Virus record (IMG/VR): IMGVR_UViG_3300002514_006559
Location: 27,180-62,382 of that record
Reading direction: 5' to 3' (one strand)
Origin: a virus
DNA: 35,203 nt
Shown here: positions 8,238 through 27,772 of the stretch, piece by piece
Layout of the letters: each line of letters opens with the position of its first letter
Position numbering within the stretch: position 1 is the stretch's first letter
Notes under the pieces: model-generated
Told to the model about the DNA's origin: nothing
Database searches by the model: none
The model's input: only the letters and a program-made list of their open reading frames with translations
Program-made: the position numbers and the translations under genes

Positions 8238-8262
8238 TCAATGGGCGGTGGAAGTAATTATT

Positions 8263-8270
8263 AAAGGAGG
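8263..8270 (+). promoter_or_regulatory. Strong ribosome binding site for the gp25-like gene
   Basis: AAAGGAGG ends 8 bases before the ATG at 8279. It is the closest match to the anti-Shine-Dalgarno consensus in the window and fixes that start. It begins inside the TAA at 8262-8264, which is the second in-frame stop after the giant upstream protein. Confidence 0.85.
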
Positions 8271-8278
8271 AACTTTAT

Positions 8279-8668
8279 ATGGGATGGCTAGCACCAAGTT
8301 TACCACTAAGAAAAAGCACTGAAACGGGATATGTTCTTGTTAAGGATTATACAAAATTAGTAAAACAAAATTTTAAAAATTTACTTTTAACTGTTCCCGG
8401 CGAACGCATGATGGACCCTAATTTTGGTATTGGAATCAAAAGATTCCTTTTTGAAATTGATTCCCCATTATTATATGATAGAATATCATCTAAAGTTCGA
8501 CAACAAGTTAATAGATATTTACCTTATTTAGATATCGAAAACATAATATTTAATTCAGCAACTGAAGATCCTACAATGGATTTAAATTCTTTAGGAGTCA
8601 TAATAGAATATCGAATTGTTCCACTAGAGTTGAGTGATCAATTAGAAATAACTACTATTGTTGACTAA
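8279..8668 (+). CDS. gp25-like baseplate wedge protein (GPW/gp25 family)
   Basis: At 129 residues it matches the usual size of the gp25/GPW family, which includes T4 gp25 and the type VI secretion protein TssE. Residues 40-59 carry the family signature: PGER, then DPNFGIGIKRFLFE, with the conserved Gly-Glu-Arg loop and the Pro-x-Phe-Gly turn. The protein belongs to the inner baseplate wedge at the sheath-baseplate junction, where gp25 helps prime sheath assembly and clamps the wedge with gp6. The start is well supported by the AAAGGAGG at 8263. The next gene encodes its usual partner, a gp6-like protein, 24 bases downstream. Family assignment is firm; the T4 role is transferred by homology. 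Confidence 0.93.
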   Translation: MGWLAPSLPLRKSTETGYVLVKDYTKLVKQNFKNLLLTVPGERMMDPNFGIGIKRFLFEIDSPLLYDRISSKVRQQVNRYLPYLDIENIIFNSATEDPTMDLNSLGVIIEYRIVPLELSDQLEITTIVD

Positions 8669-8678
8669 TTATTTGCTG

Positions 8679-8695
8679 AAGGGGAAACAAAATTG
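8679..8695 (+). promoter_or_regulatory. RBS supporting a TTG start for the gp6-like gene
   Basis: AAGGGG at 8679-8684 lies 8 bases before TTG (8693-8695). No ATG precedes the conserved N-terminus, which reads MANTKNYPAVQYTSRDF from this TTG, so the rare start codon is probably real. It may lower translation relative to neighbours. Confidence 0.7.
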
Positions 8696-10495
8696 GCAAA
8701 CACAAAAAATTATCCTGCGGTACAATATACATCTCGCGATTTTAATTCTATAAAAAGAGATTTAGTGAATTATGCGAAAAGATATTATGCCAATACTTAC
8801 CAAGATTTCAGTGAAGCCGGTTTTGGCTCTTTGATGCTGGATACTGTTGCCTATGTTGGAGATATTTTATCTTTTTATGTTGATTATAATGTTAATGAAT
8901 GTTTCCTTGATACTGCAATTGAATACGATAATGTTATAAAATTAGGTCGTCAAATGGGTTTCCGCTTTAAAGGAAGCTCAACATCATCTGGTCAAGCTTC
9001 TTTTTATATAATAATTCCTGCTAATAGCACAGGAGATGATCTTGATTATGCTTATGTTCCGACATTAAAAAAAGGAAGCCGATTTTCTTCAGGTGATGGA
9101 ATTACTTTCACTCTTAATGAAAATATAAATTTTGCAAATCCTTCAAATGAGCACACCACCGCTGTAGTTACCGAAACAGGAAATATAACTTCTTACGCAG
9201 TTAAAGCTCAAGGACAAGTAATATCAGGTGAACTTTTTGAAGAAAGAGTTGTAGTTGGAGATTATCAAAAGTTTTTCCGGACTCAACTGAATGGCTCTAA
9301 TATTAACGAAATTATTTCTGTGGTTGATTCTGAGGGGAAAGAATATTATGAAGTTGATTATTTAGCACAAGACGTAGTTTATCGTTCACTTCTTAATACA
9401 GATAGCGATTATAAAACTGAAACAACGGCGGTCTTAAGACCATTTGCGGTTCCGCGAAGATTTATGGTGGAACAAGTTCAAGGAGATATGGTCTTACAAT
9501 TTGGTTTTGGCTCAGAAGATAATACAGCCGCAGACACATTAATTGATCCAAGCAAAGTTATATTAGATGTTCATGGAAAAGATTATACAAGTGATGTCTC
9601 TCTAGATCCTACAAATTTATTAGGAAGCGATAAGTTTGGAATTGCTCCTTCAAATACTATTTTAACAGTTACTTATCGCGCAAATACAATTGACAATGTT
9701 AATGTTTCGGCTAATGGATTGGTGAATGTTGACGGACCTCTTTTTGATTTTAATGATTTATCTGTTCTTAGTGGAGATCAAGTGGAGAATGTTATAAACT
9801 CTTTAGAAGTAAATAACGAAGAACCAATTCTTGGAGATGTTTCATTACCATCAACAAATGAGTTAAAGCAAATGATTTATAATACTTTTGCTTCTCAAAA
9901 CCGCGCTGTGACTGCTTTAGATTATAAAGCTATGTGTTATGCGATGCCACCCCAATTTGGGAAAATTAAGCGTGTAAATATAGTTAAGGATCGCGGCTCT
10001 TTAAAAAGAAATTTAAACGCATATCTTTTATCAGAGGATGTAAACGGTCATTTTATTCAAACTAATTCTACGATCAAATCAAATTTAAAACAGTGGTTAA
10101 ACCAAAGCCGCATGATAAATGATACTGTTGATATTTTAGATGCTAAAATTATTAATATTGGGATTGATTTTGATATAGTAACATCTTTGAATGCGAATCG
10201 TTTTGATATTTTGGACCAAGCTGTTGCATCAATTGGAGCATTTTTAAACGAGAAATTAGAAATTGGAGAGCCGTTTTATTTTTCAACCATTTATAATCGT
10301 CTTAATTCCATTCCCGGAATTGCAGATACCACACGAGTTAAAGTTTATCAAAAAACAGGAAACAATTATTCTTCTAATTTTCGGTTTATTATTGATAATC
10401 ATATTTCTAATGATGGTCGTTATATTGTTGTTCCAGATAATGCAGTTCTTGAGTTGAAATATCCAGATGTCGATATTAAAGGAAACATACGATAA
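8693..10495 (+). CDS. gp6-like baseplate wedge protein (baseplate J family)
   Basis: 600 residues, close to T4 gp6 in length. The N-terminus has the gp6 pattern: YTSRDFNSIKRDL at 12-24, then residues 38-75 with DF...GSLMLDTVAYVGD and a following Tyr-x-Asp...Asn-Glu. Residues about 389-435 resemble the second conserved block of the baseplate J family (NELKQMIYNTFASQNRAVTA, then a YKAM...FGKIKRVNIVKD stretch). In T4, gp6 forms dimers that tie neighbouring wedges into the inner baseplate ring together with gp25 and gp7. Here it directly follows the gp25-like gene and abuts the next gene with no gap, implying coupled expression. The start is a TTG with a good ribosome binding site. Homologues also occur in tailocins and type VI systems, but the surrounding genes point to a phage. 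Confidence 0.93.
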   Translation: MANTKNYPAVQYTSRDFNSIKRDLVNYAKRYYANTYQDFSEAGFGSLMLDTVAYVGDILSFYVDYNVNECFLDTAIEYDNVIKLGRQMGFRFKGSSTSSGQASFYIIIPANSTGDDLDYAYVPTLKKGSRFSSGDGITFTLNENINFANPSNEHTTAVVTETGNITSYAVKAQGQVISGELFEERVVVGDYQKFFRTQLNGSNINEIISVVDSEGKEYYEVDYLAQDVVYRSLLNTDSDYKTETTAVLRPFAVPRRFMVEQVQGDMVLQFGFGSEDNTAADTLIDPSKVILDVHGKDYTSDVSLDPTNLLGSDKFGIAPSNTILTVTYRANTIDNVNVSANGLVNVDGPLFDFNDLSVLSGDQVENVINSLEVNNEEPILGDVSLPSTNELKQMIYNTFASQNRAVTALDYKAMCYAMPPQFGKIKRVNIVKDRGSLKRNLNAYLLSEDVNGHFIQTNSTIKSNLKQWLNQSRMINDTVDILDAKIINIGIDFDIVTSLNANRFDILDQAVASIGAFLNEKLEIGEPFYFSTIYNRLNSIPGIADTTRVKVYQKTGNNYSSNFRFIIDNHISNDGRYIVVPDNAVLELKYPDVDIKGNIR

Positions 10496-12061
10496 ATGGC
10501 TATCAAGAGATATACAGCAATTAAAGATAATACTATCACTAATGCTTATGAATCAAATTTAACTACTCGCGGAACAGGCAGCAATATGGGTTTGGCCGAT
10601 TCTTTGGAGGTATTTTCAATTTATGCACAAGCAAACTCTTCTTCAAATGAACAGTGTAAATTTATTGTTCAGTTTCCCGTTACAGCCGATGATACTGGAA
10701 CCACTATTATATCAGATAGAAATAATAATAATATCCCTGCAAGCGGAAGTGTAAATTTTTATTTAAGAGTTTTTAATGTTGCAACCAATCAAACTCTGCC
10801 GCGTGATTTTACTTTAGTGGTTTCTCCCATATCTCAATCCTGGGAAGAAGGCTATGGTTTGGATATGGAAAATTACTCAGACTTAACTTATGGTGGGACT
10901 GGTTCAAATTGGATGAGCGCATCAGCAACTAGTGTTTGGACAAATATAGTTCCCGAAAATCTCGAAGGAGGAAGTTTTTTAAGCGCATCTTGGATGGGCG
11001 CAGCATCAGATAACTACAATGAATTTAATTATAAACAAACATTTGGAACTGGTGTTGGCGATTTAGAGGTCGATATTACAGGACTTGTTGAACAATGGAT
11101 TTTAGGAACTGCTGGTACTGGCCCAGCAGGTGCTGGCTATTCGAACTATGGTGTGGGAGTAATGTTAACTTCCAGTCAAGCCAGCGGTAATCGTTCATTT
11201 TACACTAAAAAGTTTTCTGCACGAGGAAGTGAATATTTCTTTAAACGCCCAATTATTGAAGCTCGATGGGATAATTCTCGGAAAGATAATCGAGGCAATT
11301 TTTATGTTTCAAGTTCAAATATGAATTCTGCGGATAATTTAAACACTCTTTATCTTTATAATTATGTTAGAGGTCAACCCACGGATCTTCCAAATCTTGG
11401 CGATAATCGTTTAGTTGGAGTAAGAATTTATACATCATCTTCTATGGGAGAAGTAATCCCAGCTGTTGGGAGTGGTTCATTTGAATATTTGAATGCTGTT
11501 ACTGGTGGATGGGTGGCAACTGGAATTTATAGTGCTTCGTTTGCTCTTAATACGACTGCGAGCTTTGTACATGATAGATGGTTTACTGGATCCGAGGGTG
11601 CATCAATTGATGCTACTGATTCTAGAGTTTTTCATACTGGATCATTCACACCTATTCCTTTTAATTCTTCTAATGTATATTCAATACCGCGTTATGTTAC
11701 TACGATTACTAATTTACAGTCAGAATACTATAGGAATGACAATGCTAGGTTACGCCTTTTTACTCGTTTAAAAGATTGGAGTCCAACTATTTACACAGTA
11801 GCATCTAAAGAGATAGAAAATAAATATGTTGAAAATGCATATTATAAGATTTATCGAGAAGGAGATGAATTAAATGTTATTGCATATGGAACAGGAAGTG
11901 ATAAGTATACTCGGCTTTCTTACGATGGTTCGGGCAGTTATTTTGATTTAAATGTAAGTTTGTTAGAATCAGATTATTCTTATGCAATTAAATTTCTCTA
12001 TTATATTAATGGTGCTTACGAAGAACAACCAGAAATTTTTAGATTCAGAGTAAAAGAGTAA
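10496..12061 (+). CDS. Baseplate-associated beta-sandwich protein (DNRLRE/CBM96-like N-terminal part)
   Basis: 521 residues, starting immediately after the gp6-like stop; AAAGGA at 10478-10483 lies inside that gene. Residues about 5-265 follow the plan of the DNRLRE/CBM96-type jelly roll: a KDNTITNAY opening, an NMGLADSLEV strand, then KFIVQFP, SISQSWEEGYG, VDITGLVEQWILG, NYGVGVMLTSS and a terminal RPIIEARWD. These domains are known for carbohydrate binding or as passive beta structure in surface proteins. The C-terminal half is Ser/Thr/Tyr-rich, beta-like and unassigned. Its position between the gp6-like and giant wedge-like genes suggests it decorates or bridges the wedge, possibly where T4 has gp8 or gp10, but I see no direct sequence match to those. 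Fold assignment is moderate; function is inferred from context. Confidence 0.7.
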   Translation: MAIKRYTAIKDNTITNAYESNLTTRGTGSNMGLADSLEVFSIYAQANSSSNEQCKFIVQFPVTADDTGTTIISDRNNNNIPASGSVNFYLRVFNVATNQTLPRDFTLVVSPISQSWEEGYGLDMENYSDLTYGGTGSNWMSASATSVWTNIVPENLEGGSFLSASWMGAASDNYNEFNYKQTFGTGVGDLEVDITGLVEQWILGTAGTGPAGAGYSNYGVGVMLTSSQASGNRSFYTKKFSARGSEYFFKRPIIEARWDNSRKDNRGNFYVSSSNMNSADNLNTLYLYNYVRGQPTDLPNLGDNRLVGVRIYTSSSMGEVIPAVGSGSFEYLNAVTGGWVATGIYSASFALNTTASFVHDRWFTGSEGASIDATDSRVFHTGSFTPIPFNSSNVYSIPRYVTTITNLQSEYYRNDNARLRLFTRLKDWSPTIYTVASKEIENKYVENAYYKIYREGDELNVIAYGTGSDKYTRLSYDGSGSYFDLNVSLLESDYSYAIKFLYYINGAYEEQPEIFRFRVKE

Positions 12062-12065
12062 TGAC

Positions 12066-15000
12066 ATGGCTAACATTAAAGATCTTTTTGAAAAAAATAA
12101 AGATAATAAAATCTTAGCCGACGCTTCTTTAAACAAGGTTGGCTCTGGTATTGAATCTTCGAATTACGTAAAAAGTAACATAAAGAATAAAGAACGTTTT
12201 ATCCCCCGTATTAATTTTAGTTCTGCTTCTAATTTTGCAAGATATGGCCTAGCAGAAAAATATTATTCGGATTCTATCAATTACATCACGAGTGAATATC
12301 CTTATGATGGTTCCCAAAAAGAAAAAATAGAATGGAACCTGTCTTCCTCATATCTTGACCGTCACATTTTTGAAAATGAATATCCAAGAACCACTGGTTA
12401 TATTAATCTTGGTTTAGATTATGGAACAGTTACATTCGGCAGTTCTACAAACTTAGATGCGAGCACTAAATCAGAATATATTGGATTTTTAGGCAACACC
12501 ACAACCCTTCCTCAAAATATTGATCCTAATCAACCGCTTTCTTTAAGATTTGATAATTTAAATCTTTATAATACAGCTAGTGCAGGATTTTCAAATTTAG
12601 AAATCAATGGTAGCACCGGCTTCGGTGCAGAATTTTGGCTCAAAAAAGATGGTTGGGGGATCACTACAGAATCTCGCGAACAAATTATTTTAGATATTTG
12701 GAATAGTTCTTCAGTTTCACCCATCGGGCTTTTCCGTGTTTCAGCTTTAAGCGCATCAGCAGCTTTTAATGTTTCTATTTTATCGGGCGCTGTAACAAAT
12801 ACATTTACACTTGGTTCCAAACTTCCTATAAGTGGAAACACATGGAATCATTATGCCTTAATGTTTAAGAATAATGATTCTAATTTAGTTGGCAAACTTT
12901 ATCATAATGGAAATTTAGTTGATATAGATCGTTCTCTTACTTCTATTAATAAAATCACTGGCTCAATGATGGGGAATATTGGCGCAACTACTGGTTATGG
13001 TGATGGTGGAGACAGCGGCGAAGTCGATGGAGCGGGATTCGGAAAACTATCAGCTTCTTTGGATGAATTTCGATTTTGGAAAACAGAACGATCTGCTGAA
13101 AAAATTGGTCGTCATTGGTTTACTCAAGTCGGGGGTGGCACAAATAGCGATATAACACGCGCAGTCACAGCTTCTACAAAATATAGTTATGAAAATCCTG
13201 TAGATCTTGGATTTTATTATAAATTTAATGAAGGTATCTTTAACTCAACTGCCACAGTAACAAAAGATTCTGTTATATTAGATTATGCTGGGCGTGTAAC
13301 AAATGGTAATTGGACGGGCTATTCCGTGGGTGGCCGGTCATCAGGTTCTGCGATTGTTGAAAGTAGTGCATCTTTGGCTGAATTTAAAGATCCAATTATT
13401 TATTCCACTCACCCCGATGTTGTGTCACTTCTTAAAACTAAAAAAGAAGAAGGATATCAACACGATCAAAAAAATTTAGCAAACATTTATTCTTCATATC
13501 CAAATTGGATCTTAGAAGAAGATGAGGGCGAACAAACCGAAGTCCTTAAAGATTTAACACAAATTATCGCTAGCTATTTTGATACTTTACAATTACAAAT
13601 TGATTCACTTCCATCACTTAAGGATGTAAATTATTTTAGTGGTTCTGATAAACCATATCCTTTTGCAGAAACATTTATAAATTCTCTTGGAATGGTTTCT
13701 TCTGATATTTTTTCAAACGCTACCGATTTAGAATATTTGGCATCAAGAAATGATTATAAAAATTTCTCGTCTAAATTAGAAGATACAAAAAATAAAATAT
13801 ATCAAAACATTTATAACAATTTAGTTCACATTTATAAATCAAAAGGAACGGAAAAATCATTTAGAAATCTAATACGTTGTTTTGGTGTTGACGATGAGCT
13901 TGTCAATATTAATCTTTATGGTGACAACATCGAATATGAGTTTAGAAATAATGTAGACTATAGAATTGTTAAGAAGCGATATGCTAATTTTTATGAAGAT
14001 AATAAGTTTTCAGCTACAGTATTTCAACAAACTTCTAGCACAAATTCTGAAAGTCGTGGTTATCTTAGTTCTAACCCAGAAGTATTTTATCGAGGAAACA
14101 CTTACGAAGCGGAGGCTATTTTCGGTAGCAATTTAGATGGGGTCCATAAAAATTATATTTACACTCCTTTTACAAGTTCAGCTGTTTTTGGCTGTCACAG
14201 TGCTGTCACCGCTTCATGGATGGGAACTACATGGGGATCACCAGATTATGGAAACTTCCAGGTTTTAGCAGTCCGTCCATCAATTTCTTCTAAAGATGCC
14301 CGTTTTCACCTAACTGGAACAGCAGGAGGATTTTTCCCATTATTAACCAGTAGTTTATTTAGGAATGTTTATGATGATTCTAGATGGAATTTTGCAGTTA
14401 AGGTAAAACCCACCAAGTATCCTTTAGCTGACGGAGTTACTGGCAGCGCAACAGGAAGTTATGATGTTGAATTTTCTGGTTATAATTATGTTTTAGATTC
14501 TCTTGCTAATAGCTTTTCAGCTTCTTCTGTTATTGATGGAGCAGATGCAAGACAATTTTTGATTTCTAATAAGAGATTCTTTGCTGGTGCTCATAGAACC
14601 AATTTTACTGGGAGTGTTGTTCAAAACAGTAGTGCTAAGATTTCTTCTGTACGAGCTTGGATAGATTATTTAGATGACAAAAGCATTCAAGCCCACGCAC
14701 AGGATGTTGAAAATTTTGGAACAAAATACCCTTATAAAAATGCTTATATTTCTCAATTAAGTAAATCACTTGGAAATAATATTGTCAGTATTCCTCAAAT
14801 GGAAACGCTCGCCCTTTCTTGGAATTTTGATACTGTAACAAGTTCAAATGCAAGTGGACAGTTTGTTGTTCCTGATGTTTCCACAAGACCTATAAATTAT
14901 ATTGGTGGACCCGGAACTTTAAATAGTTCAGATTGTATAACTTGGGAAAATCTGGTCAATATGGTTGCTATTGGTTGTGGAGGTATCGTCAAGACCAGCG

Positions 15001-18000
15001 GCGGTAGCGGCTGGAATTCGTGGGCCAATGCAGCTCCGATTGGTGCAAATGGTGCTGTTACTTTTGACCCATTGTTCACTTACACCTCTATGTGGGAAGT
15101 ATATGGCGGTCTTCATACATCTGCGGGTAGTGCAGGGGATCAAGGTCTTATTGCTTATGCTTTCTTTTTTGATTCCTTAACAGCAAATGCAGTCGTTATC
15201 CGAGAAGCAGGCTCAGATCCTACTGGTGGTTTATCATGGGCTTTTACTAATCCAACAGATCGTTTTAGGATTATTCGTGGCAATTTTGGTGAAGTTTTTT
15301 ATCAGCGAAGCATTGATGATGGAGCAACATATTCTACAATTTATGCAAGCACCGTTAACGCAACGGGCGATTTATATCCTGTTGTAACATCTAATGATGC
15401 TTCTTGGATCGCTGGACTTTATGGCTCTGTGGAACAAGGCGTGACATCTTCTTTGGACTGGGGATGGCTTAGTTCAATTGCACAGCCTCAACACACTGGA
15501 ATGGGTTATGGTTTTCCTGTAAATGACACTGGTTCAATAGACAGAAGGTATATCCATTCAGCCAAACAACAATTGCCTGAAGTTGTTAATAGTGGAGATA
15601 TGGTTTCCATTATTGATGATACAGACAATCAAATGATGACGCGAGATTCAAGGCCAATAGATTATTATTTTGCATTTGAAAAAAGCATGTATGGAATAAT
15701 TTCGGAACAGATAATAAATTATTTTGGAACAATCGTTGGTTTTAATAATTTAATTGGAGAACCAGTAAATCGATATCGTCAAGAATATAAAGATTTAGGA
15801 AAATTACGTTCTCTTTATTTTGAGAGGGTTAAGAATACTCCCGATTTTGAAAAATTTGTTGAATATTTTAAATGGATTGATACTGCCCTAGGTTTAATGC
15901 TAGTTCAATTAGCGCCAGCAACTGCTGGTTTTTCTGAAAAACTTCGCACAATGGTTGAAAGTCATGTGCTTGAAAGAAATAAATATTGGACAAAATTCCC
16001 AAGTTTGGAAGTAGAACAAAGTGTTCCTGAAGCTGGAGTGCGAGGCATTAATGAAATGCTTTATTCGTGGAAAAGAGGACATGCTCCATTTACACAAGAA
16101 GACACTCAAACTGCTTGTATCGAATGGAAAAATCCGGTTAATCTTAGAGTGTTTGACTATCCTGGTGCTTGGTCTGCTGGTTGTGGAGGAGTGTATAAAG
16201 GTTCTGGCGAAAACGCATGGAACTCCTGGGCAAATGCAAAAGGAATTAATACTTATAGTTCAGTCACTTTCTTATCCTCTTATAGCGATGCTACAACGAA
16301 TAGTGCTAAAGTGGGGCTTCATACTTCGGAAGGCTCCGCAGGCGATGAGCCAGCATTTGCTTTTTGGTTCGATGCAAATTCCGCGAATGCCGTGCTCATC
16401 CATGAGAATGGTTCAGATCCTACTGGTGGCTCTACTTGGGCTTTAAATACGACTGATTATTGGCGCATTAAAAGAAGTGATGGTGGCACAATTGAATATC
16501 AACGTAGTACGGATGGGGGAGTTACTTTTTCTACTGTTTATACTAGTGCAACCAAGGACACATCCACCTTATACCCAGTTATAGCAGTTGAAAGAGTCCC
16601 TTCTTTAGCTGCTGGAATTACTTCCGCGACGGTCGAAAACCGAGATAATGTTAATTGTCTTTGGTGGAAAGAACGAGCCGAAGCTGATAATTCGTTACGT
16701 GGTAATTCAACAGTAGACACACAAAGGAACACATTTAGATTAGCAAATGATTTTAGAAGCGGAAGTGGCCCAACTCTTGCAGTTTCTAGAAATTCAACCG
16801 ATACTAAAACAACTTATGCGGGAAGCACATATGCAATAAGAAACTTTACAAAACCCTATAGGTTAATGGTTGAAGAATTACCAGAAATTCATGGTGGATC
16901 AAATTTCTCAAGAGGAAAAAAACTTGATTATGCTCATACACAAATAAAAACAGATCCTTTCGGCGCTACACAAATTAAATTAAAACTTACGGCGTCAACA
17001 ATTGAAGAAAAAGCTTGCACGGATGTTATTGATCCTAGTGCCAAAAAGAGACTTGAAGGTGCATTTGTAAGCAACCAAAGTACAACTGCTTTAGCCGATG
17101 TGTCTAAAAACTATGAAGGTGGAAGATCTTCAATGTTTGCACCGTTTAGTTTGTTTAGTTCTTCAATTACTCCTTCATATTTATCCAATTTTAGAAGCAA
17201 CACTCAGATAGCCAATTATCATAATGATTCATATGGAGAAGATAATGAAACTCCAATACAAGGTCCATTCACCAATGCTCATGTTGGCGGCTGGCAATAT
17301 CGACATCAAAATATAAACAGCGGAGCAGCAGATACAACTGCTACCAGGGCTGAAGCTTGGGAATTATCTGCGGATTCCAATTATATTCAAATTGCGTCAC
17401 GCAATTATGATGCGAATCTTCCTCGCGCAACAATGCTTCGTACTGATTATGCAAAACGTCCAGTAAACATTCGCAACATTAAATGGGGAACTGGCTCTCA
17501 AGTTGCAGGCAATTTTAGAAAAAATTATGAAGTATTGCAAACATCAAAGCGTGCATTAAACAATCGCTTCTTTGTTAAAAATGAAGGATTTAATCCAGTT
17601 CTTAATATATCTCCAACTTTTGATGAGGTGGTGTCTTTTCAACTCCCACGTTACGATTTGACCGGAACAACGAAATCAATTTTTGTTGAAAGATTTAACG
17701 CTCCTGGTGGACCAGAAGTTAGCTCAAGAGGTGCTTTAGATCTTTATGCTGAAGAATATGCAATTTATAATAATTTAAATTTCCGAAATCAGATTGTTCG
17801 TAACGCATTAGATGGTTGGCAAAGAGCTTATTGTGGACAGTTTGGGACTTGGGCCGTTTCAGGAGCAGTTGAGGGATATCGCCAACCACGCACAGAAGAT
17901 TATAACACTTTAGCAAATTATCATAAAGTTAATAGAAATGGACGTTCAACTGTTCTTATAAACGATTTTAGCAGAGAAGTTGAGTGGGTTAATCTTGGTG

Positions 18001-21000
18001 GCACAACTCCACTGGGCCGAACCGGGTGTGAATTGTCTAATTTTAATAGAACTTTAGGGGTTGTTGCCGCTGGACTTCCCCTAGTCCGATGGGGATCTTC
18101 CGCCGAGAGCAATCAAAGTATTGAAACAACTGGATATTTCGAAATCGAAGTTAGTGTTATTGATCCTATGCCCAATTGGGTTATCGGTCTATCTTCTAAT
18201 GACAAGGAAATATCAAACAAGGTCGATGATTTTTGGGATTTTTCATTAAGAGGTTCCACTCAAGTGCGTGTCTTTGAGGGTGATATTGATAGAATGTCGG
18301 CACGGTCAATTGCCGTTGGAGATAAATTGCGAATTTCCAGAATTAGATCCCAGATTATCTATCAACATAAACCAGTAGGAACTGCTAATTGGATTACTTT
18401 TTATATAAGCACTATTACTCCAAAAGGTAATTATTATCCTCGGGCTGCTTTTGATTATCTGGCTGGAATCGATACTTCTATAACAAACGCTCGCATCTCC
18501 AACCCTCGTTACGATAATTGGTATGTCCAACACCCAATTCCACAAAGTGAATTGCAATATGCATGGATAAATGATTCTTATGATAAATCAAAAGATCAGC
18601 CATTTGGTTATGCCTCAAACTTTACCGTTCCTTCTGGAAGCACTGCCACAACTGCATCGGCAGTTCAGTTTGTGACAAAATCTTGTTGGAATTATGATTG
18701 GGCGACGTTGGGGGGTTGTTCTTATTATGTTAATTTTGCACAATATTATTTTCAATTCAATTGGCCAAAGGAATATTATAAATATACTATTACTCCCTCG
18801 ACAAACACTTTAGAACCGGGATACATTTTTTCGTCGCATTTGTACGGAAGAACAATTAACGGTCATTTCAATAACATTAACGGTCCTTACGGTTATCCAT
18901 CTTGGAAACAAATTAGAACTGGTGAAACACCCGTTGCACGGTATCAAAAAAATAATAATATTTTATCTATCATGCAACCTCCACGACTTACTGAATTACC
19001 CAATGGTAATGGCTTTGAAAAAGCAGCAGTATTTTATAACAGCCGAACAGATACTCAAAAACAATTTATTGTACCTCCAGTTGTGTTCAAATATCGTGCT
19101 CTTGATACAGAACATGCGGTTTCTGAACGTCGCGGACGAACAGGTCTTACTGATCTGGTTAGAACAAAATTAAGAAGCACATACGCAAATAATAATTGTT
19201 TGTTCTCGCACGGACCAGTTCAAACTATAGGTTCTAATAATGAATCAATTGCAGACTGGTTAAACGTTCCATCTGCAAAAACAGATATGCAGATTTATGA
19301 TGTAATGAAGGCTGATCCTTCTGTATGGACAAACATTTACAAGCTCAATTATAAAGAGATTGTTTATCCGCGAGGGGCAAACGCAGGACTTACAACTGCT
19401 CGCGGAAGACCTGAATATGCGGAAGTTGCGATTGGGTCTTTATTTGGAAATACATTTTCTGCTTCTTTATCAGTAGGATCAAATGGAATTGATCGAGGAC
19501 CACTTGAGCGAAGAACATTTTGGAGAGATTCGAATATCTTAAGAACTAGACGCGCAGGGGTTGTGCAATTTTCGAATGCAACTGTCGGAGTCGCCCTTGA
19601 TCCAAGCTGGTATATTACTGGAACTATTCCAAACTCTCAAGGAATAATAAACGGTCACTCAACTGGTATTTATCCTTTTGGCACAATTCCTCTCTCATAT
19701 TCATTGGGTGCCCAACAGACAGGATTACAACTCTGTACCCAAGTCGCGGGTGTCGCGTTCGGCACCCCAGATCAATATCCTAACACCGGAGAACTAAACT
19801 CAGCTAATTATCAAATTTTTGCTGGTTATGCAGGAACTAGTCGGGACAGCGCCAACCCGTCAGGGGTTTCCAGTTCTATCTCAGCACATTGTGTATGGTA
19901 TCCCACAGCATCTGCTTTTTATTATCATTTTCCACGTATTGCGGGTGCCCAAGGCAGCAACGGACCTTATATGATCGGAATGAAATGGCGCACAGCAGAA
20001 TTATCAGGCAAAAAGCCCTGGTTCGATTCTTATGAAGATTATGCCGCTGATATTCGCGGATTAGGAAAAAGTTTTACAGTTGTTCCAGAATTTAGAATTT
20101 CAGACCACATAAAATATTATATTGTCACAAAGGCGAAAGATTTTAAAGCGAAGAATGACAAGTTTCTAAGTTTAAACGGAGCCAGTATTACTTCAAGCGC
20201 AAATGATCGAGATTCATCCCCTAATGATGATATAAGAGGTTTTAGTGATAAATTTTTTAATGATTATTCAAATTCAGATTTTCAACAATATTTTGGAAAA
20301 TTTGATACTGATTCTGATGATAATCTTACCAACCTTACTTTGAGATGCAAAGGGATCAAAAAACTTCTTCCTTATAATGGGTTTTACCCATCACAACGAT
20401 CTTTACAATTGGCTTCTTTATTTTCTCAATCCATAGCTCCCTATGTAGACGGAATTCAGTGGAAACGAGGTCAAACTATAGACCCCGATCACCCACCTTC
20501 GGGGGCTTTAGCGGTCCAATCTCTGTTGCAACCTTTTTATGCACCAGGTATTATGTATAACACTATTAAATCAGGTATTGGTGTGACTTGGGGAGCTTAT
20601 ACAGGCTCTATTCCAGTTGGCACTGGAATATATGGAGCAGCGACGGTAGGCACATTGAGACTAAAATCTAATTATAAAATACCTTTTGAATCTATTTTAG
20701 ATCCTTTAGGAAAAACAGGAATACCCAATCAATCTGGAAGTGAAACTGCGACTCAAAAATTGTACCTGGCTATTCCGACTTATCAGACAGGTTCCCGAAA
20801 CGACTACGCCATCAGTGGCGCAGCCTTTCCGTGGGCACCGGTGTGCTGTCCAGAATCTCCAACAGCAAGACAGGCCCGCGCCCCATATGTAGAATTAACG
20901 GGCTCATCGAGAACATTAGCTCAAAGTAATAATTCTGATTATGGGGTATATCAATTGGCAATTAGTAATTTCTTAGCTGAAATCCCTAATTTCTTTTTAA

Positions 21001-22619
21001 ATAATTCAGAAGATCCTGGTAAATTTAAAAAAATTGAATCATCTTTTAATGTGTCTCAAATACGGAACAGATTGCAAGCCGGTACGCGGTATTACATGGA
21101 TATTTATTTGGACAAATCTGATGATTTGGTGATGATGGAAGAGAAATCTGTGTTCAAGGCACCTGGTTTGCCTGCTACTAGAGATGTGAACGGTAGATTG
21201 TTTGGACCTCCGTTGGCGACGAAGGAAAACTTCCTCAATTTCGCGGAAACATTGTGTTATACTCAATATACTCCTCCTTACTTTTTTGGACGCTCTAAAG
21301 TAACTATAGAATATTTATCAACAGCTGATGATGCTACCAATTTTACTTTTGGTAAATTTTTTAATGAAGTGACCTCGACATATTCCAATCGTACACTCAC
21401 TGATCGATTTCAAGCGTATGCTGGCCACGGAGGGCTGCAATCCGCCGCCCATTCGGGAACTATGACCATAGATGCTTCAATTAATTTTGAGGGAGTCAGC
21501 AGGGGAATAGGAGGACCAAACGATACGACTACTGATGCTGGTTTGGATAAGTGGGTTATTAGCCCACGGATGGAAACTCCAGTTTTAGATTTTTCCGGTA
21601 ATCTTGGCACTACAGCTGAAGACCGTCCTGATGGCCCTATAGGGATGTGGTCGGGTTATGGTGAATTACCTGTTAACAAATCAATTAATTTTGGAATAGA
21701 CGAAACATATACTAATTTAAGTCTCGTTAATGCATTTGGTGGTCAGATTAACAGCCCAACAACCGGCTCTTTAATTGACGTAATGTTTGATAGTCAAACT
21801 CAACAAAAACAAGTGGGAGAAATGGCATTTTCCAAAGAAATATCGGAAGCAATTGTGGCAATTCCATATGTTGAAGCCCCTGACAACAATCCAAATCAGG
21901 CAACACGCACCAAAGATCCGATTTTAGGAAAATATTTCTTTTCATTAGGGGATAATCATATTGATAGTGCTAAAAGATTCCGAGCATTTTGGGGAAACAA
22001 GCGACAATTTGGTGAAGCAATTCCAGATGACCAAGCTTCTGTATGGGGTTCTGGTGGTCCTGTTGTTGATACTTCTATATCAGAGTTGGGGCTAATGATG
22101 GATAAATATATTTTCCCACCAGAACTTGATTTTAGAACTAATCGATTTACCTTTCGATCTTTCGTAGCCAATACGGTGACAGATCCAATCCCACTTGTAA
22201 CAGGCGATTTTATTGAACCATTCGTTATGTATGTTATGGAATTTAATCATACATTAAAACGCCAGGATTTGATTGACATATGGCAAGGTTTAATGCCTGA
22301 AATTTCAACTCAAGCCGAGCAAGCAATAAGTGAAGCTTCGTGGCCAACTGGACCTTTGGAATTTTTTGGTGGTAAACAGATCCCAGCTAATATACGATGG
22401 ATGGTATTCAAGGTGAAGAAAAGGGCTAATATTGATTATTATAAAGCCACACCTTCGGAAACGGATGATTCCCAAACTTCAACTATTATACACGAAGCTG
22501 AACTACTTGGCGCTAGTTATAATTGGCCCTATGATTACTTCTCGCTTGTTGAATTAGCAGAGCTTGAAGTTGAAGATGAATTTTTAATATATCCAGAAAC
22601 GGAGACTGAAGGAACTTAA
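12066..22619 (+). CDS. Giant multidomain baseplate wedge/tail protein with inserted lectin-like domains
   Basis: 3,517 residues, over three times T4 gp7 (about 1,030 residues). Start ATG follows AAGAG at 12054. Residues 150-356 look like a LamG_3/concanavalin domain (WNHYALMFKN, SLDEFRFWKTERSAEKI). Residues about 440-640 resemble phage tail protein I/wedge proteins, with IYNNLVHIYKSKGTEKSFRN at 580-600. Residues about 676-884 look like a second concanavalin-type domain (SSVRAWIDYLDDKSIQAHAQ). A third lectin-like domain type occurs three times, at about 957-1122, 1351-1526 and 1973-2148. Between the first two copies lies a helical core at about 1200-1320 (FEKSMYG, NNLIGEPVNRYRQEYK, ESHVLERNKYWTKFP). 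Later blocks include SWKQIRTGETPVARYQKNNN, LLQPFYAPGIMYNTIKSGI and, at the C-terminus, NWPYDYFSLVELAELEVE. I infer a structural wedge core loaded with host-surface-binding modules. The gp7 equivalence is suggested by gene order, not proven. Confidence 0.75.
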   Translation: MANIKDLFEKNKDNKILADASLNKVGSGIESSNYVKSNIKNKERFIPRINFSSASNFARYGLAEKYYSDSINYITSEYPYDGSQKEKIEWNLSSSYLDRHIFENEYPRTTGYINLGLDYGTVTFGSSTNLDASTKSEYIGFLGNTTTLPQNIDPNQPLSLRFDNLNLYNTASAGFSNLEINGSTGFGAEFWLKKDGWGITTESREQIILDIWNSSSVSPIGLFRVSALSASAAFNVSILSGAVTNTFTLGSKLPISGNTWNHYALMFKNNDSNLVGKLYHNGNLVDIDRSLTSINKITGSMMGNIGATTGYGDGGDSGEVDGAGFGKLSASLDEFRFWKTERSAEKIGRHWFTQVGGGTNSDITRAVTASTKYSYENPVDLGFYYKFNEGIFNSTATVTKDSVILDYAGRVTNGNWTGYSVGGRSSGSAIVESSASLAEFKDPIIYSTHPDVVSLLKTKKEEGYQHDQKNLANIYSSYPNWILEEDEGEQTEVLKDLTQIIASYFDTLQLQIDSLPSLKDVNYFSGSDKPYPFAETFINSLGMVSSDIFSNATDLEYLASRNDYKNFSSKLEDTKNKIYQNIYNNLVHIYKSKGTEKSFRNLIRCFGVDDELVNINLYGDNIEYEFRNNVDYRIVKKRYANFYEDNKFSATVFQQTSSTNSESRGYLSSNPEVFYRGNTYEAEAIFGSNLDGVHKNYIYTPFTSSAVFGCHSAVTASWMGTTWGSPDYGNFQVLAVRPSISSKDARFHLTGTAGGFFPLLTSSLFRNVYDDSRWNFAVKVKPTKYPLADGVTGSATGSYDVEFSGYNYVLDSLANSFSASSVIDGADARQFLISNKRFFAGAHRTNFTGSVVQNSSAKISSVRAWIDYLDDKSIQAHAQDVENFGTKYPYKNAYISQLSKSLGNNIVSIPQMETLALSWNFDTVTSSNASGQFVVPDVSTRPINYIGGPGTLNSSDCITWENLVNMVAIGCGGIVKTSGGSGWNSWANAAPIGANGAVTFDPLFTYTSMWEVYGGLHTSAGSAGDQGLIAYAFFFDSLTANAVVIREAGSDPTGGLSWAFTNPTDRFRIIRGNFGEVFYQRSIDDGATYSTIYASTVNATGDLYPVVTSNDASWIAGLYGSVEQGVTSSLDWGWLSSIAQPQHTGMGYGFPVNDTGSIDRRYIHSAKQQLPEVVNSGDMVSIIDDTDNQMMTRDSRPIDYYFAFEKSMYGIISEQIINYFGTIVGFNNLIGEPVNRYRQEYKDLGKLRSLYFERVKNTPDFEKFVEYFKWIDTALGLMLVQLAPATAGFSEKLRTMVESHVLERNKYWTKFPSLEVEQSVPEAGVRGINEMLYSWKRGHAPFTQEDTQTACIEWKNPVNLRVFDYPGAWSAGCGGVYKGSGENAWNSWANAKGINTYSSVTFLSSYSDATTNSAKVGLHTSEGSAGDEPAFAFWFDANSANAVLIHENGSDPTGGSTWALNTTDYWRIKRSDGGTIEYQRSTDGGVTFSTVYTSATKDTSTLYPVIAVERVPSLAAGITSATVENRDNVNCLWWKERAEADNSLRGNSTVDTQRNTFRLANDFRSGSGPTLAVSRNSTDTKTTYAGSTYAIRNFTKPYRLMVEELPEIHGGSNFSRGKKLDYAHTQIKTDPFGATQIKLKLTASTIEEKACTDVIDPSAKKRLEGAFVSNQSTTALADVSKNYEGGRSSMFAPFSLFSSSITPSYLSNFRSNTQIANYHNDSYGEDNETPIQGPFTNAHVGGWQYRHQNINSGAADTTATRAEAWELSADSNYIQIASRNYDANLPRATMLRTDYAKRPVNIRNIKWGTGSQVAGNFRKNYEVLQTSKRALNNRFFVKNEGFNPVLNISPTFDEVVSFQLPRYDLTGTTKSIFVERFNAPGGPEVSSRGALDLYAEEYAIYNNLNFRNQIVRNALDGWQRAYCGQFGTWAVSGAVEGYRQPRTEDYNTLANYHKVNRNGRSTVLINDFSREVEWVNLGGTTPLGRTGCELSNFNRTLGVVAAGLPLVRWGSSAESNQSIETTGYFEIEVSVIDPMPNWVIGLSSNDKEISNKVDDFWDFSLRGSTQVRVFEGDIDRMSARSIAVGDKLRISRIRSQIIYQHKPVGTANWITFYISTITPKGNYYPRAAFDYLAGIDTSITNARISNPRYDNWYVQHPIPQSELQYAWINDSYDKSKDQPFGYASNFTVPSGSTATTASAVQFVTKSCWNYDWATLGGCSYYVNFAQYYFQFNWPKEYYKYTITPSTNTLEPGYIFSSHLYGRTINGHFNNINGPYGYPSWKQIRTGETPVARYQKNNNILSIMQPPRLTELPNGNGFEKAAVFYNSRTDTQKQFIVPPVVFKYRALDTEHAVSERRGRTGLTDLVRTKLRSTYANNNCLFSHGPVQTIGSNNESIADWLNVPSAKTDMQIYDVMKADPSVWTNIYKLNYKEIVYPRGANAGLTTARGRPEYAEVAIGSLFGNTFSASLSVGSNGIDRGPLERRTFWRDSNILRTRRAGVVQFSNATVGVALDPSWYITGTIPNSQGIINGHSTGIYPFGTIPLSYSLGAQQTGLQLCTQVAGVAFGTPDQYPNTGELNSANYQIFAGYAGTSRDSANPSGVSSSISAHCVWYPTASAFYYHFPRIAGAQGSNGPYMIGMKWRTAELSGKKPWFDSYEDYAADIRGLGKSFTVVPEFRISDHIKYYIVTKAKDFKAKNDKFLSLNGASITSSANDRDSSPNDDIRGFSDKFFNDYSNSDFQQYFGKFDTDSDDNLTNLTLRCKGIKKLLPYNGFYPSQRSLQLASLFSQSIAPYVDGIQWKRGQTIDPDHPPSGALAVQSLLQPFYAPGIMYNTIKSGIGVTWGAYTGSIPVGTGIYGAATVGTLRLKSNYKIPFESILDPLGKTGIPNQSGSETATQKLYLAIPTYQTGSRNDYAISGAAFPWAPVCCPESPTARQARAPYVELTGSSRTLAQSNNSDYGVYQLAISNFLAEIPNFFLNNSEDPGKFKKIESSFNVSQIRNRLQAGTRYYMDIYLDKSDDLVMMEEKSVFKAPGLPATRDVNGRLFGPPLATKENFLNFAETLCYTQYTPPYFFGRSKVTIEYLSTADDATNFTFGKFFNEVTSTYSNRTLTDRFQAYAGHGGLQSAAHSGTMTIDASINFEGVSRGIGGPNDTTTDAGLDKWVISPRMETPVLDFSGNLGTTAEDRPDGPIGMWSGYGELPVNKSINFGIDETYTNLSLVNAFGGQINSPTTGSLIDVMFDSQTQQKQVGEMAFSKEISEAIVAIPYVEAPDNNPNQATRTKDPILGKYFFSLGDNHIDSAKRFRAFWGNKRQFGEAIPDDQASVWGSGGPVVDTSISELGLMMDKYIFPPELDFRTNRFTFRSFVANTVTDPIPLVTGDFIEPFVMYVMEFNHTLKRQDLIDIWQGLMPEISTQAEQAISEASWPTGPLEFFGGKQIPANIRWMVFKVKKRANIDYYKATPSETDDSQTSTIIHEAELLGASYNWPYDYFSLVELAELEVEDEFLIYPETETEGT
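14934..15432 (+). repeat. Lectin-like domain copy R1 within the giant wedge-like protein
   Basis: Encodes residues about 957-1122. It begins CITWEN and contains WNSWANA, GLHTSAGSAGD, ANAVVIREAGSDPTGG, RFRIIR and YQRSIDDGATYSTIY. It aligns with R2 over its whole length. A 17-base identity, TCAGATCCTACTGGTGG, is at 15213-15229. Part of it is much GC-richer than the gene: 34 of 60 bases in 15001-15060 are G or C, against 13 of 60 in 13801-13860. Confidence 0.85.
16116..16644 (+). repeat. Lectin-like domain copy R2 within the giant wedge-like protein
   Basis: Encodes residues about 1351-1526. It begins CIEWKN and repeats WNSWANA, GLHTSEGSAGD, ANAVLIHENGSDPTGG, YWRIKR and YQRSTDGGVTFSTVY. The shared 17-base block is at 16413-16429, exactly 1,200 bases after its R1 counterpart. 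It sits between YSWKRGHAPFTQ and NCLWWKERAE, which read as parts of one conserved core segment. Confidence 0.85.
17982..18510 (+). repeat. Divergent lectin-like domain copy R3 within the giant wedge-like protein
   Basis: Encodes residues about 1973-2148. The order of elements matches R1/R2: EWVN, a Gly-rich turn, VIGLSSNDKE for the GLHTS strand, GDKLRISRIRSQIIYQ for the RI.R...YQ strand pair, and GNYYPRAAF for the LYPV strand. Identity to R1/R2 is low, so this is an older or independently acquired copy. It lies between NYHKVNRNG and DNWYVQHPIPQSELQYAW. Confidence 0.6.
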
Positions 22620-23710: not shown

Positions 23711-26700
23711 ATGGAATTTTTAAGTGAAAAAGAATTATTAGGTAAATTTACGCCACAAGTTTATACTAGCAAAATAACTTTGGAACCTGCCAATCCACAA
23801 ACACCACTTCGTAGAGATCCACATGTTAAACCACTTATTGTCGGAGCGACACTAACCTCGGGGATGAGTGAAGCCAGCCGTTATGCTTTGGATATAGACG
23901 ATTCATCAGGCGCTCCGCTTCCAACACCAACTCAATTAAATGTTACCATTAACATGACAGTAAAAGATGTTCTTTATGATTTACAAGCTTCGTGGTTTAA
24001 TAATATTAATTTCACTAGAAAAACTGGCACTCAACCCTTCGATTTAAAAAATTATATAAAGATATATTGTGGCCAATTGATGTCCGCTGGTGATTTTGGT
24101 ACAGCCATGACAGCTATTAGAAACAATCCAGCAGGTTTAAAAAATCTTTTTGGTGTTGACGATATTAAAATGAAAACTTTGGGTGAAGTAGTTGGAAGTG
24201 TTAATGATGTTTTGACACAAGCCGTGGCAAACGAAAGTGCAGAAATAATTGAAAATCGGAGACGTGTTTCATCAATTGTTCAACAATCCACACAACTTAA
24301 TTTAAAAAATATACCATATAATGTAACGTTTGGGCCTATAGAAAATCCTAATCCAAATTTTTTGGCCTATGTGACTTGGACAGAATTTGATCTACAGCAA
24401 ATTGCAGTGGATTATGATTTCGACATCATCAATTTCGCATCATTTCAAAATATTTTTAATGTTAAATATTATTCCAGAAAAATGGTTGATAAAGTAATAG
24501 AAGGCGGAAAAGTTATAAATACTGCCTATATTTTTAGAGACAAAAGCGGCGTCGTTTGGAATGGACCAAATCCAGTACAAATAAATTCAAACCGATATTG
24601 GACTGGTCGATGGTATCAAATATCTGACGGAGCTATTTTGAATGCTGCTGAAGCTGCAACTGTTAGAAAAGCTACAAACGGTCAATTTGTATATGATCAA
24701 GGCTACGAAGTTCCTGTTAAGCAGGAAATTGTTTTTAAAAAGGGAGTTAAAAATACGAAGATTCAAGATTTTCGTACTGTTGAGAGAGTTGAAAAACTTA
24801 ATTTAGATCTTTCTACTCTTGAGAATAAATTAAAGCCGATGTTATCTGGTTTTAAATTTTCTAGAATGTTGGATGAATATAAAAATAAATCAAACCAAAA
24901 TTTTTCTACTATGCATTTGACCAGAGATTTAAATAATAATTGTCGGTTCATTTTTTCTATGAGATTTGATAAGATTTTAGAACAAAATTCTCTCTTTGGG
25001 AATCTTTATAAAAACCCTAGAACAAAAAATGCGGTAGTTGCTGGTTCTGAAATTATTTCTTTAAGACTTCATCGCATAAGATTAAAGGGAAGTCCTGAAA
25101 TGGGCTCTAAACCACTTTACATATCCACAGCCGGTGAAGCCAATGATCGACCACGAAAATTTTATGACAATGAACCGTCGCCACCATCTTTTATGTATAT
25201 GTCTGATACAGAACAAACTGTGGGTTCATTACCAGTCGGCCCTGCCAGCACTCAGACAACAGATGGCGATGAATTGTTGTTAGAATATAAGCCAACTAGT
25301 CTTAGTAGTGGAGATGTTGTGGCATTTGACGGTGTGTCTACTATTAGAAGCGTTTTTGGAACTCAGGTTTATACAGGGGATAATAATGTGTCTCAACTTC
25401 CAATAAAATATTTTACTGGAGTTGATCGATCAGTTGTAAATAAAACAGATGGCTTTTATCAATATAAAGTTGTTTTAGAAATAAAAGATGGTGCGCCTGC
25501 TTTTTTAGCAAATCTCATAGAACAATTAAGGAGTGCCCAAACAGCTCTGGGAGGATATTATGCAGAAGCCTCCAGACTTGGATCACCAGGCGCAAGCAAT
25601 CCTTATGAAAATCCGCATGTACAACAATCCGGTGATTCGAGAGGATTAATCCAACCCAATGATCCAAGACCCGCAAACTTTAATGTTTTAGCAAATAGAT
25701 TTACACAACATTTTATTAATACACAACCGGATCAACAAGATTCATCATCACCTTGGATGATTGCCGCAAGAATATATTCTCAAATAATATCGACTTTAGC
25801 CAATTTGCCTTCGGGTGAACAGCAAGAAATAAAAAATTCACTTATAGATTACATGAGTCCGCATACTGGCAATATTGAGGGCATCTTGCTCACATTTAAG
25901 TTGTTAGAAGAATTACAACAAATTCTTTTGGAAGCAATTAAGGGGTTGAGGCCCGTAAAAAGCAGTAATGGCAATTGGGCACTTCATCCGGGCGAAGGCA
26001 ATTTTATGAAGGTTCAAGGTAATCAAATAGTTGCCAGTAACATCCAGGATTATGGCCCTCCTAAAATGAGTACGATCAAGACCGAATATCGTTTTCAATC
26101 CATATTTGATGCTAACATGCCAAAGAATGTTGGACTTAATATTTTGGGAATAGATATTGCTGATTATAATAATAATGGAGGTCTTTTAACTATACCCGGA
26201 ACAGACTTCACCAATATGGTTGCCAATGAAACTAAAAAAATCTTTAGTAATGATCGTGTGTCTGATTGGGACGCAACAGGACTTATTTGGATAAGAAATA
26301 TTCCTGAAGTTGGAAAAGCCACAACGTATAATGTTGGAGATGGGGACATGTCTTATTTTACTCCAACGATTATCAATACTTTGAGTGGAACTGTAAAAGT
26401 CGGTGGTGTAAATTCAAATCCGCAAATGTTGGCAGCTGATGCCTCTCGATGGGTTAATGATTTTAGTTCAGAGCAGAGAACAAAATTAGCACAAGATATA
26501 GAATTTTCTATCTCAAGTTTTGTAGGAACTAATTTTAATTTAACAGTTGTGCCAGAAAATGAAGTCCAAGTTCCTATTGTTCCGCCTGGGCCACAACCAC
26601 CATCGAATCAAGTATTGGTTGATGATCGTAATACGTATTATGATACTTTGCGTGATGAACAGAAAGAACTCAACAGAGATGCTTATTCTAACTTTACTGA

Positions 26701-27772
26701 AATATTAGGCAATTTAAATGTTAATGGTGCTACTAATGTATCTTCTATATCATTGAGGGCATTAAAAAATAATGACTTAGAACTTTATAAACCGTCAAAT
26801 CCGGCTGGACATTTGGCCAAATGGGGCTTGATGGATCCTACATTACCCGGCGCTCAACAACCAACTTTACAAATGCCGGATGCCAATGGAGTTTTGCAGA
26901 CTATCGATATTAGAAGTTTTATGTCAACACTTCCCAATCAAGTTAAGGCTTTGTTTTCAATTGCTAGCAAGCCTGTTATTTCTGGCGGCGGCTTCGGATT
27001 AGATATTAGAATGGACTTAGTAAATGCTCTCTGGGGCCGATCTCGTGGAAATAGTGTTGGTGGTATTACTGATTGGAATCAGCCGAGAGAAGAACGCAGC
27101 GGCGGCAGAGCACTTACAAGATATGTGTTTGAAACTATTTATACATTGGAAGTTTTTACCGGATATGAAATGATTACTGAAGATGTCGGCGCGGGCGCAA
27201 ACGCCGATGTACCTTCTTTAATAGAAAAAAAATGGGTGCCACTAACACGAACAATATATGGTGATGCTCACACTAATAATCAATATTTATTATGTAGATT
27301 TAGACCATATGAAAATAGTATTGCAGGCATCAGCCTAGAAAATGAATTGCCACTTTATGAACAATATTTTATGATACAACCAGGAAATGTTCCCCCAAGA
27401 GTTCAAGAAGATACCCAAGAAGACGATTTTGCGAGAGAAGCAGCAGAAGCAGAACAAGAAAGAAGTTTTACAGAATTTTTAGAAGCAGGCGCAGAATTTG
27501 ATCCTCGATTAGAAGAGTTGGCTGCTGGATTTGGAGCCGGGGGTGCGGAGGCTTTCGCAGCCCTTGGAGATTTCAGTGGCTTGGGTGCCCTTTTCGGCAG
27601 CGATACGGACACGGGCGACGAACAAGAACAAGGAGTAGGGGGTTTCGGACAGGGAGCGGCTTTGGCCAGTGAGCTTGGTGGTGGTCTTGCCGATGGAATT
27701 CAAGCTGTGGAAGGTTTCGCAGCAGGTATTCTAGGTGGTATAATTGGCGGCAATAGCGGATATGGAGAATAA
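23711..27772 (+). CDS. Large virion structural protein with Gly/Ala-rich acidic tail
   Basis: 1,353 residues, starting 3 bases after the preceding stop; the G-rich GGTGGTGGTGGA at 23690-23701 probably serves as ribosome binding site. Residues 1-590 look globular and conserved in style: a strand-rich start (TLTSGMSEASRYALD, LNVTINMTVKDVLYDL), several aromatic-rich blocks, a helical hairpin near 355-410, and IKYFTGVDRSVVNKTDGFYQ followed by YKVVLEIKD. A second half near 650-1200 has mixed helices and a Pro-rich linker (PPGPQPPSN). The last 115 residues change sharply: acidic Glu/Ala helix (DDFAREAAEAEQERSF), then Gly/Ala-rich low-complexity sequence ending in AGILGGIIGGNSGYGE. DNA for this tail is GC-rich (37 of 60 bases in 27541-27600). 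No known family recognised; a structural tail or baseplate role is inferred from its neighbours. Confidence 0.65.
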   Translation: MEFLSEKELLGKFTPQVYTSKITLEPANPQTPLRRDPHVKPLIVGATLTSGMSEASRYALDIDDSSGAPLPTPTQLNVTINMTVKDVLYDLQASWFNNINFTRKTGTQPFDLKNYIKIYCGQLMSAGDFGTAMTAIRNNPAGLKNLFGVDDIKMKTLGEVVGSVNDVLTQAVANESAEIIENRRRVSSIVQQSTQLNLKNIPYNVTFGPIENPNPNFLAYVTWTEFDLQQIAVDYDFDIINFASFQNIFNVKYYSRKMVDKVIEGGKVINTAYIFRDKSGVVWNGPNPVQINSNRYWTGRWYQISDGAILNAAEAATVRKATNGQFVYDQGYEVPVKQEIVFKKGVKNTKIQDFRTVERVEKLNLDLSTLENKLKPMLSGFKFSRMLDEYKNKSNQNFSTMHLTRDLNNNCRFIFSMRFDKILEQNSLFGNLYKNPRTKNAVVAGSEIISLRLHRIRLKGSPEMGSKPLYISTAGEANDRPRKFYDNEPSPPSFMYMSDTEQTVGSLPVGPASTQTTDGDELLLEYKPTSLSSGDVVAFDGVSTIRSVFGTQVYTGDNNVSQLPIKYFTGVDRSVVNKTDGFYQYKVVLEIKDGAPAFLANLIEQLRSAQTALGGYYAEASRLGSPGASNPYENPHVQQSGDSRGLIQPNDPRPANFNVLANRFTQHFINTQPDQQDSSSPWMIAARIYSQIISTLANLPSGEQQEIKNSLIDYMSPHTGNIEGILLTFKLLEELQQILLEAIKGLRPVKSSNGNWALHPGEGNFMKVQGNQIVASNIQDYGPPKMSTIKTEYRFQSIFDANMPKNVGLNILGIDIADYNNNGGLLTIPGTDFTNMVANETKKIFSNDRVSDWDATGLIWIRNIPEVGKATTYNVGDGDMSYFTPTIINTLSGTVKVGGVNSNPQMLAADASRWVNDFSSEQRTKLAQDIEFSISSFVGTNFNLTVVPENEVQVPIVPPGPQPPSNQVLVDDRNTYYDTLRDEQKELNRDAYSNFTEILGNLNVNGATNVSSISLRALKNNDLELYKPSNPAGHLAKWGLMDPTLPGAQQPTLQMPDANGVLQTIDIRSFMSTLPNQVKALFSIASKPVISGGGFGLDIRMDLVNALWGRSRGNSVGGITDWNQPREERSGGRALTRYVFETIYTLEVFTGYEMITEDVGAGANADVPSLIEKKWVPLTRTIYGDAHTNNQYLLCRFRPYENSIAGISLENELPLYEQYFMIQPGNVPPRVQEDTQEDDFAREAAEAEQERSFTEFLEAGAEFDPRLEELAAGFGAGGAEAFAALGDFSGLGALFGSDTDTGDEQEQGVGGFGQGAALASELGGGLADGIQAVEGFAAGILGGIIGGNSGYGE

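Follow-up and report, generated by a model that had tools for sequence, protein, structure and literature searches.

A giant protein of the baseplate module, encoded in the window (the whole stretch of 35,203 nucleotides analysed here, itself part of a 62-kb linear viral record), has a conserved core that is interrupted at three sites by domains of one family, designated R1, R2 and R3, and that possesses a fourth insertion site besides these. Empty versions of all three sites filled in the window are found among relatives, and of about 70 distinct relatives (from the best 80 of at least 578) none but the window's own virus has the combination of R1, R2 and R3. We consider it probable that this protein is of the baseplate-wedge type and belongs to a marine phage with a contractile tail, and that its core would offer at least four loops (sites 1 to 4) that take extra domains while the core stays undisturbed. 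The R family, a predicted SPRY/concanavalin A-like domain, occupies all four sites across one clade; in other phages Laminin_G-type (LamG) domains are present at these four sites and further insert types at sites 2 and 3. The domains would be gained, lost and exchanged as cassettes with only occasional moves between sites, and replacement tracts point to homologous recombination within the conserved core to the left and right of each site as the most likely route. Most probably the inserts would be exposed on the outside of the baseplate, binding host-surface sugars or proteins, and their exchange could retune adsorption or host range.

Table 1. Features of the window, in window coordinates, and occupancy of the insertion sites among relatives
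Feature	Position	Strand	Evidence or remark
gp25-like baseplate wedge gene	8279-8668	+	PF04965, E 6e-12; phrog_261, E 1e-18
gp6-like baseplate wedge gene	8693-10495	+	phrog_6, E 1e-22; phrog_219, E 4e-17
Giant baseplate-module protein, host of the inserts	12066-22619	+	open frame, 3,517 aa
N-terminal Laminin_G-like region, fixed part of the core	12231-13475 (approximate)	+	profile iterated from Laminin_G_3-type inserts
Predicted pentraxin/Laminin_G-like fold of the core, interrupted by R1	13968-15557 (approximate)	+	limits taken over from the model of L009
R1 insert, site 1	14886-15458 (domain proper 14910-15452)	+	AF2 model, pLDDT 86; empty sites in relatives
Tract differing between window and L004	16024-16735	+	R2 and flanking DNA, about 55 bases on the left and 85 on the right
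R2 insert, site 2	16089-16649 (domain proper 16092-16640)	+	missing in L004; 54/68 distinct relatives empty
R3 insert, site 3	17940-18509 (domain proper 17952-18503)	+	profile E 2.6e-55; site unfilled in several relatives, L008 and L009 among them
Site 4, empty in the window	18702-18827	+	R-type domain there in L004, L005, L007 and L028
Occupancy of site 1			R 2, LamG 1, empty 69 (linker of 4-17 aa); n = 72 distinct relatives, best 80 of at least 578
Occupancy of site 2			R 3, LamG 4, other 7, empty 54 (6-13 aa); n = 68 distinct relatives, best 80 of at least 578
Occupancy of site 3			R 8, LamG 8, other 5, empty 30; distinct relatives, best 80 of at least 578
Occupancy of site 4			R 4, LamG 5, empty 47; distinct relatives, best 80 of at least 578

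The giant gene lies just downstream of the gp25- and gp6-like genes (Table 1). Its product gave no Pfam or PHROG match in a protein-level search, the Dit families of both collections included; the Tail_P2_I profile (PF09684) had zero matches in the window's record, giant core included, no PDB sequence relative of the core was found, and structure comparison returned no known wedge-protein fold among the matches listed. The position after gp25 and gp6 is that of the gp7 or gpI baseplate wedge protein, and on this gene order the core is a candidate gp7/gpI equivalent. The largest related record, that of L014 (205 kb), includes a tail-sheath gene, which supports a contractile tail for the phage group; no sheath gene was found in the window's own record, which is partial. 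The same module includes three further very long genes, at 3-8237, 23711-27772 and 27775-30984 of the window (2744, 1353 and 1069 aa), none of which matched Pfam; the first two also gave no PHROG match, the 1069-aa gene lying outside that scan. A RuvC-like Holliday junction resolvase gene (34734-35201; phrog_827, E 1.6e-7) is found at the window end.

Using the core between R1 and R2 as query we recovered 23 loci, and a profile scan of IMG/VR then counted at least 578 encoded relatives of the giant-gene core, the best 80 of which were kept. Occupancy was measured between anchoring core blocks in the roughly 70 distinct relatives among these 80, with cut-offs for an empty site that are looser at sites 3 and 4, where the linkers vary more. 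One locus, L003, is identical to the window base for base over 20.5 kb and is not an independent relative; it stands for the window's virus in all counts and is counted once. The giant frame ends early in L032, L053, L058, L073, L079 and others, and in L032, L058 and L079 the later core blocks lie on another long frame after the early stop, which suggests a split gene.

The initial annotation had read the residues flanking the inserts as an interrupted core, and relatives free of each insert do run straight through: L005 at site 1 (GQFVVPDVSSGSVSLANRWGWLG), L004 at site 2 (LYSGKRGLAPIPITATGSNCEWWF) and L008/L009 at site 3 (YHKVNRNP...YDNW[FY][VI]QH). The alignment of homologues that it had called for thus yielded empty sites for R1, R2 and R3 alike, and the opposite case, in which all homologues would carry all three domains, was looked for and is excluded by the roughly 70 relatives. 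The variable presence of the domains among these relatives likewise bears out its view that they are inserted at several separate, tolerant points of a conserved core.

On sequence comparison R1, R2 and R3 are one domain family, as had been proposed. R1 and R2 are 48% identical across 159 columns (E 1.8e-44), with an alignment score of 361 against a mean of 38 and a maximum of 65 for shuffled sequences, and have in common a conserved Cys and the motifs WNxWA and GSDPTGG. The third domain is, as annotated, more diverged: pairwise it resembles R1 and R2 weakly (E about 1e-4, Z 5-6), and a profile is needed to place it securely. When a profile of site-3 and site-4 domains, built without R1 and R2, was searched against all ORFs of the loci, it recovered R1 at 2.7e-11 and R2 at 1.6e-11, and hhalign between the two R subfamilies gave a probability of 98.7% (E 1.9e-16).

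The 17-base DNA identity between R1 and R2 that had been pointed out is exact. At the residues shared by the two domains the codons agree in 35 of 73 cases, where codon usage alone predicts 31, and the identity thus reflects the conserved peptide GSDPTGG; with codon agreement at chance level, we rejected it as a sign of recent duplication. R1 and R2, being synonymously saturated, separated long ago. A foreign base composition of R1 and R2 (GC 0.435-0.439, against a mean of 0.376 elsewhere in the gene) was considered and set aside; their GC is within the top 4-6% of stretches of the same length and their GC3 is unremarkable. R-type domains were found neither in other genes of 22 related records, nor in 50,697 named phage records queried with R1 or the L011 domain, nor in bacterial and archaeal genomes at the sensitivity of a pattern scan, and the PDB yielded no sequence relative.

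The AF2 model of R1 is an all-beta sandwich (pLDDT 86), nearest to the SPRY domain 2yyo (Z 14.0) and to the carbohydrate-recognition domain of ERGIC-53 (Z 13.5), with legume lectins as the best Foldseek matches (E 6e-6). The R family is accordingly predicted to have a SPRY/legume-lectin (concanavalin A-like) beta-sandwich fold, the model displaying the two sheets that define this superfamily. None of 14 R-family members had a curated Pfam match, the best being Neuralized (E 0.012) and SPRY (E 0.046), and the placement therefore holds at fold level only. The invariant residues of the family are few and identify no sugar or metal site. SPRY domains commonly bind proteins, so that "lectin" is here a statement on the fold only.

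The core contains lectin-like parts of its own. An N-terminal Laminin_G-like region is matched in nearly all relatives by an iterated profile, and in the model of the insert-free L009 protein residues 196-546 match pentraxins and LamG domains (Z 14-16), with site 1 (497-518) in a loop inside this region; R1 would thus be a lectin-like domain within a lectin-like domain. The nesting might even go one level deeper, as a homologue in phage immuto appears without the core lectin-like domain. The model of the core is of modest quality overall (pLDDT 63) and of poor quality near site 2, and the status of the sites as loops is supported well by their length variation and less by structure.

Clustering of the inserts separated the R family from a Laminin_G_3-type family, each present at sites 1 to 4. 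PF13385 (Laminin_G_3) was matched by the inserts at site 1 of L085 (E 1.2e-19) and at site 2 of L015 (E 4e-20) and L047 (E 3.5e-21), and the inserts of this type at sites 3 and 4 were recognised by profile and clustering only. Further insert types, neither R nor LamG, are found at sites 2 and 3. The four sites, holding R, LamG and other inserts, are thus general acceptors of domains. Domains of the Laminin_G_3 type were also noted at site 2 of L016 and L020, as well as between core blocks C and D in L011, L042, L063 and L075, and the inserts of this type may derive from the fixed N-terminal copy. Two additional insert families lack a clear Pfam match and each occur at more than one site, one at sites 2 and 3 of L035 and site 2 of L066 and L039, the other at site 2 of L022 and site 3 of L014; a 393-aa insert at site 2 of L088 (residues 1112-1504) matched no family.

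Pairs of filled and empty sites with closely similar surroundings indicate how the domains move. L004 is 98.7% identical in DNA to window positions 8001-16080 and has R1 (at 96%), and it lacks R2; a nucleotide alignment shows the two sequences differing over a tract that takes in R2 and part of both flanks (Table 1), with near-identity returning at 16736. Within this tract the window's flanks (GHAP, NCLWWKERAE) resemble those of many other family members, unlike L004 and its close relatives, which have NCEWW at this flank. This fits a segment of R2 and its flanks having been recombined in from a more distant phage, and no target-site duplication or element ends are evident in the tract. At site 3, the filled L011 and the empty L009 have DNA flanks about 92% and 89% identical, and L005 and L007 are 99% identical in core blocks B and C while their site-3 domains are 27% identical. 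Near-identical flanks around replacement tracts suggest recombination between phages, with cassettes swapped at fixed sites; some inserts could be ancestral domains lost elsewhere rather than gains. A faster change of the R1 protein than of the core between the window and L004 was set aside (p 0.05, uncorrected).

A tree of the R domains clusters by insertion site and not by genome, with three changes of site label, the minimum possible, against a mean of 8.2 after shuffling. On a tree of the core, the R family is restricted to a single clade, in which 10 of the 12 members carry it; within this clade the R label requires at least three changes at each of sites 2, 3 and 4, and the only R domains at site 1 are those of the window/L003 and L004, which form one subclade surrounded by relatives with that site empty. 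Turnover looks like mostly exchange at a fixed site between phages. As R1 and R2 belong to one subfamily, at least one ancestral transfer between sites is needed, probably an old one linking sites 1 and 2.

Could an ancestor have carried R-type domains at all sites, its descendants having since lost them? Most members of the R clade do keep a domain at site 3, and a domain tree sorted by site is what vertical inheritance at each site would give. Outside this clade, on the other hand, the sites either lack an insert or carry domains unrelated to R, site 1 is filled in just the one nested subclade, filled and empty versions stand between flanks about 90-99% identical, and the contrast between L005 and L007 at site 3 is not expected from vertical descent; ancient architecture with lineage-specific loss is disfavoured and seems to us quite unlikely. 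Copying within the gene, by which one domain would duplicate into new loops of the same protein, is how the initial annotation had pictured the spread. Part of that picture stands, since the membership of R1 and R2 in one subfamily, with its common Cys, WNxWA and GSDPTGG, demands the ancestral transfer just described, and an ancient copy from site 2 to site 1 is possible. Recent events of this kind are largely refuted by the saturation of R1 and R2 (35 of 73 codons, 31 expected), by a divergence between them about equal to that between R2 and the site-2 domain of L013, likewise saturated, and by the sorting of the domain tree by site, and as a general account within-gene copying is rather improbable.

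Lectin-fold tail proteins are classic targets of diversity-generating retroelements. Such a retroelement, or another mobile element, is nevertheless a very improbable source of the variability seen here, for whole domains vary, the R2 tract has neither an evident target-site duplication nor element ends, and no reverse transcriptase was found in the window's record and nine relatives, all of them partial records. A different objection concerns function, as the domains might serve stability, fibre docking or contacts between wedges and not receptor binding. The protein binding frequent among SPRY folds would accord with this, and gp7-like wedge parts of a related injection system dock tail fibres (PMC8894135). 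Against it, the domains can be present or absent and their turnover far outpaces that of the core, unlike essential assembly contacts, and carbohydrate-binding modules placed analogously bind host sugars or cells (PMC10688798, PMC11406892); a purely structural role is in our opinion unlikely. Optional, swapped ligand-binding folds on a baseplate protein would most likely contact the host surface, and by analogy receptor binding by the R domains is plausible.

A broader reading, which we put forward tentatively and as possible, is that a widespread marine phage lineage maintains a giant baseplate protein with at least four fixed sockets, and that unrelated ligand-binding domains (SPRY-like, Laminin_G and others) are swapped into these as cassettes through recombination in the conserved flanks, giving combinatorial and possibly multivalent recognition of the host surface through a wedge protein and not through tail fibres. 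Host range is difficult to infer from the genomes of uncultured marine phages; in the present case the positions of the variable parts are known exactly. The four sites of this giant gene provide matched filled/empty and swapped pairs with nearly identical flanks, so that it becomes testable what one domain alone does to adsorption, and the insert sets could serve as a marker for linking domains with hosts.

Several known systems invite comparison. The evolved Dits of siphophages are forms of a conserved tail-tip protein with carbohydrate-binding modules inserted into loops of its peripheral galectin-fold domains (PMC7291167, PMC10688798), and adding an insert changed adsorption (PMC10688798). 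In the giant protein, too, loops of a conserved core carry inserts that differ among close relatives, and homologues free of inserts correspond to the classical Dits; insertion into a lectin-fold loop is also the situation predicted at site 1. Its core, encoded after gp25 and gp6, is not a Dit protein; it belongs to a contractile-tail baseplate module, is 3-4 kaa long, has at least four sites per chain, and carries R domains predicted to be SPRY-like where the evolved-Dit module is of the BppA type. The evolved-Dit principle, known from the tail tips of siphophages, would thereby extend to a baseplate protein of contractile tails that occurs in several hundred viral contigs or more.

The myophage Vp4 has a baseplate wedge protein, Gp119, with a carbohydrate-binding module for which cell binding was demonstrated, and resembles the giant protein in combining a myophage wedge with carbohydrate-binding folds; at 831 aa (341 aa in its Deep-Blue homologue) it is much smaller, the host is Gram-positive, and multi-site exchange is not described in the part of the paper available (PMC11406892). 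No sequence link between Gp119 and the giant protein was found. Swapped lectin domains are likewise not described for the gp7-like part of Alg12 of AlgoCIS in the accessible sections of its report (PMC8894135), and the giant core is no more than a candidate homologue of gp7. A general survey of domain-level mosaicism in phage tail proteins describes how domains continue to be shuffled in receptor-binding proteins and in those of the baseplate (PMC10684548), whereas in the giant protein exchange is mapped to fixed sites with filled/empty pairs. The best cultured homologue found, albeit distant, is gp109 of the Flavobacterium myophage immuto (YP_010114574.1), a protein of 1,265 aa without detectable core lectin-like domain or R-type inserts, which matches the helical part of the giant core (E 6e-19) and also, though less strongly, its helical stretch from site 1 to site 2, and which is encoded, in the same order as the giant gene, after homologues of gp25 and gp6.
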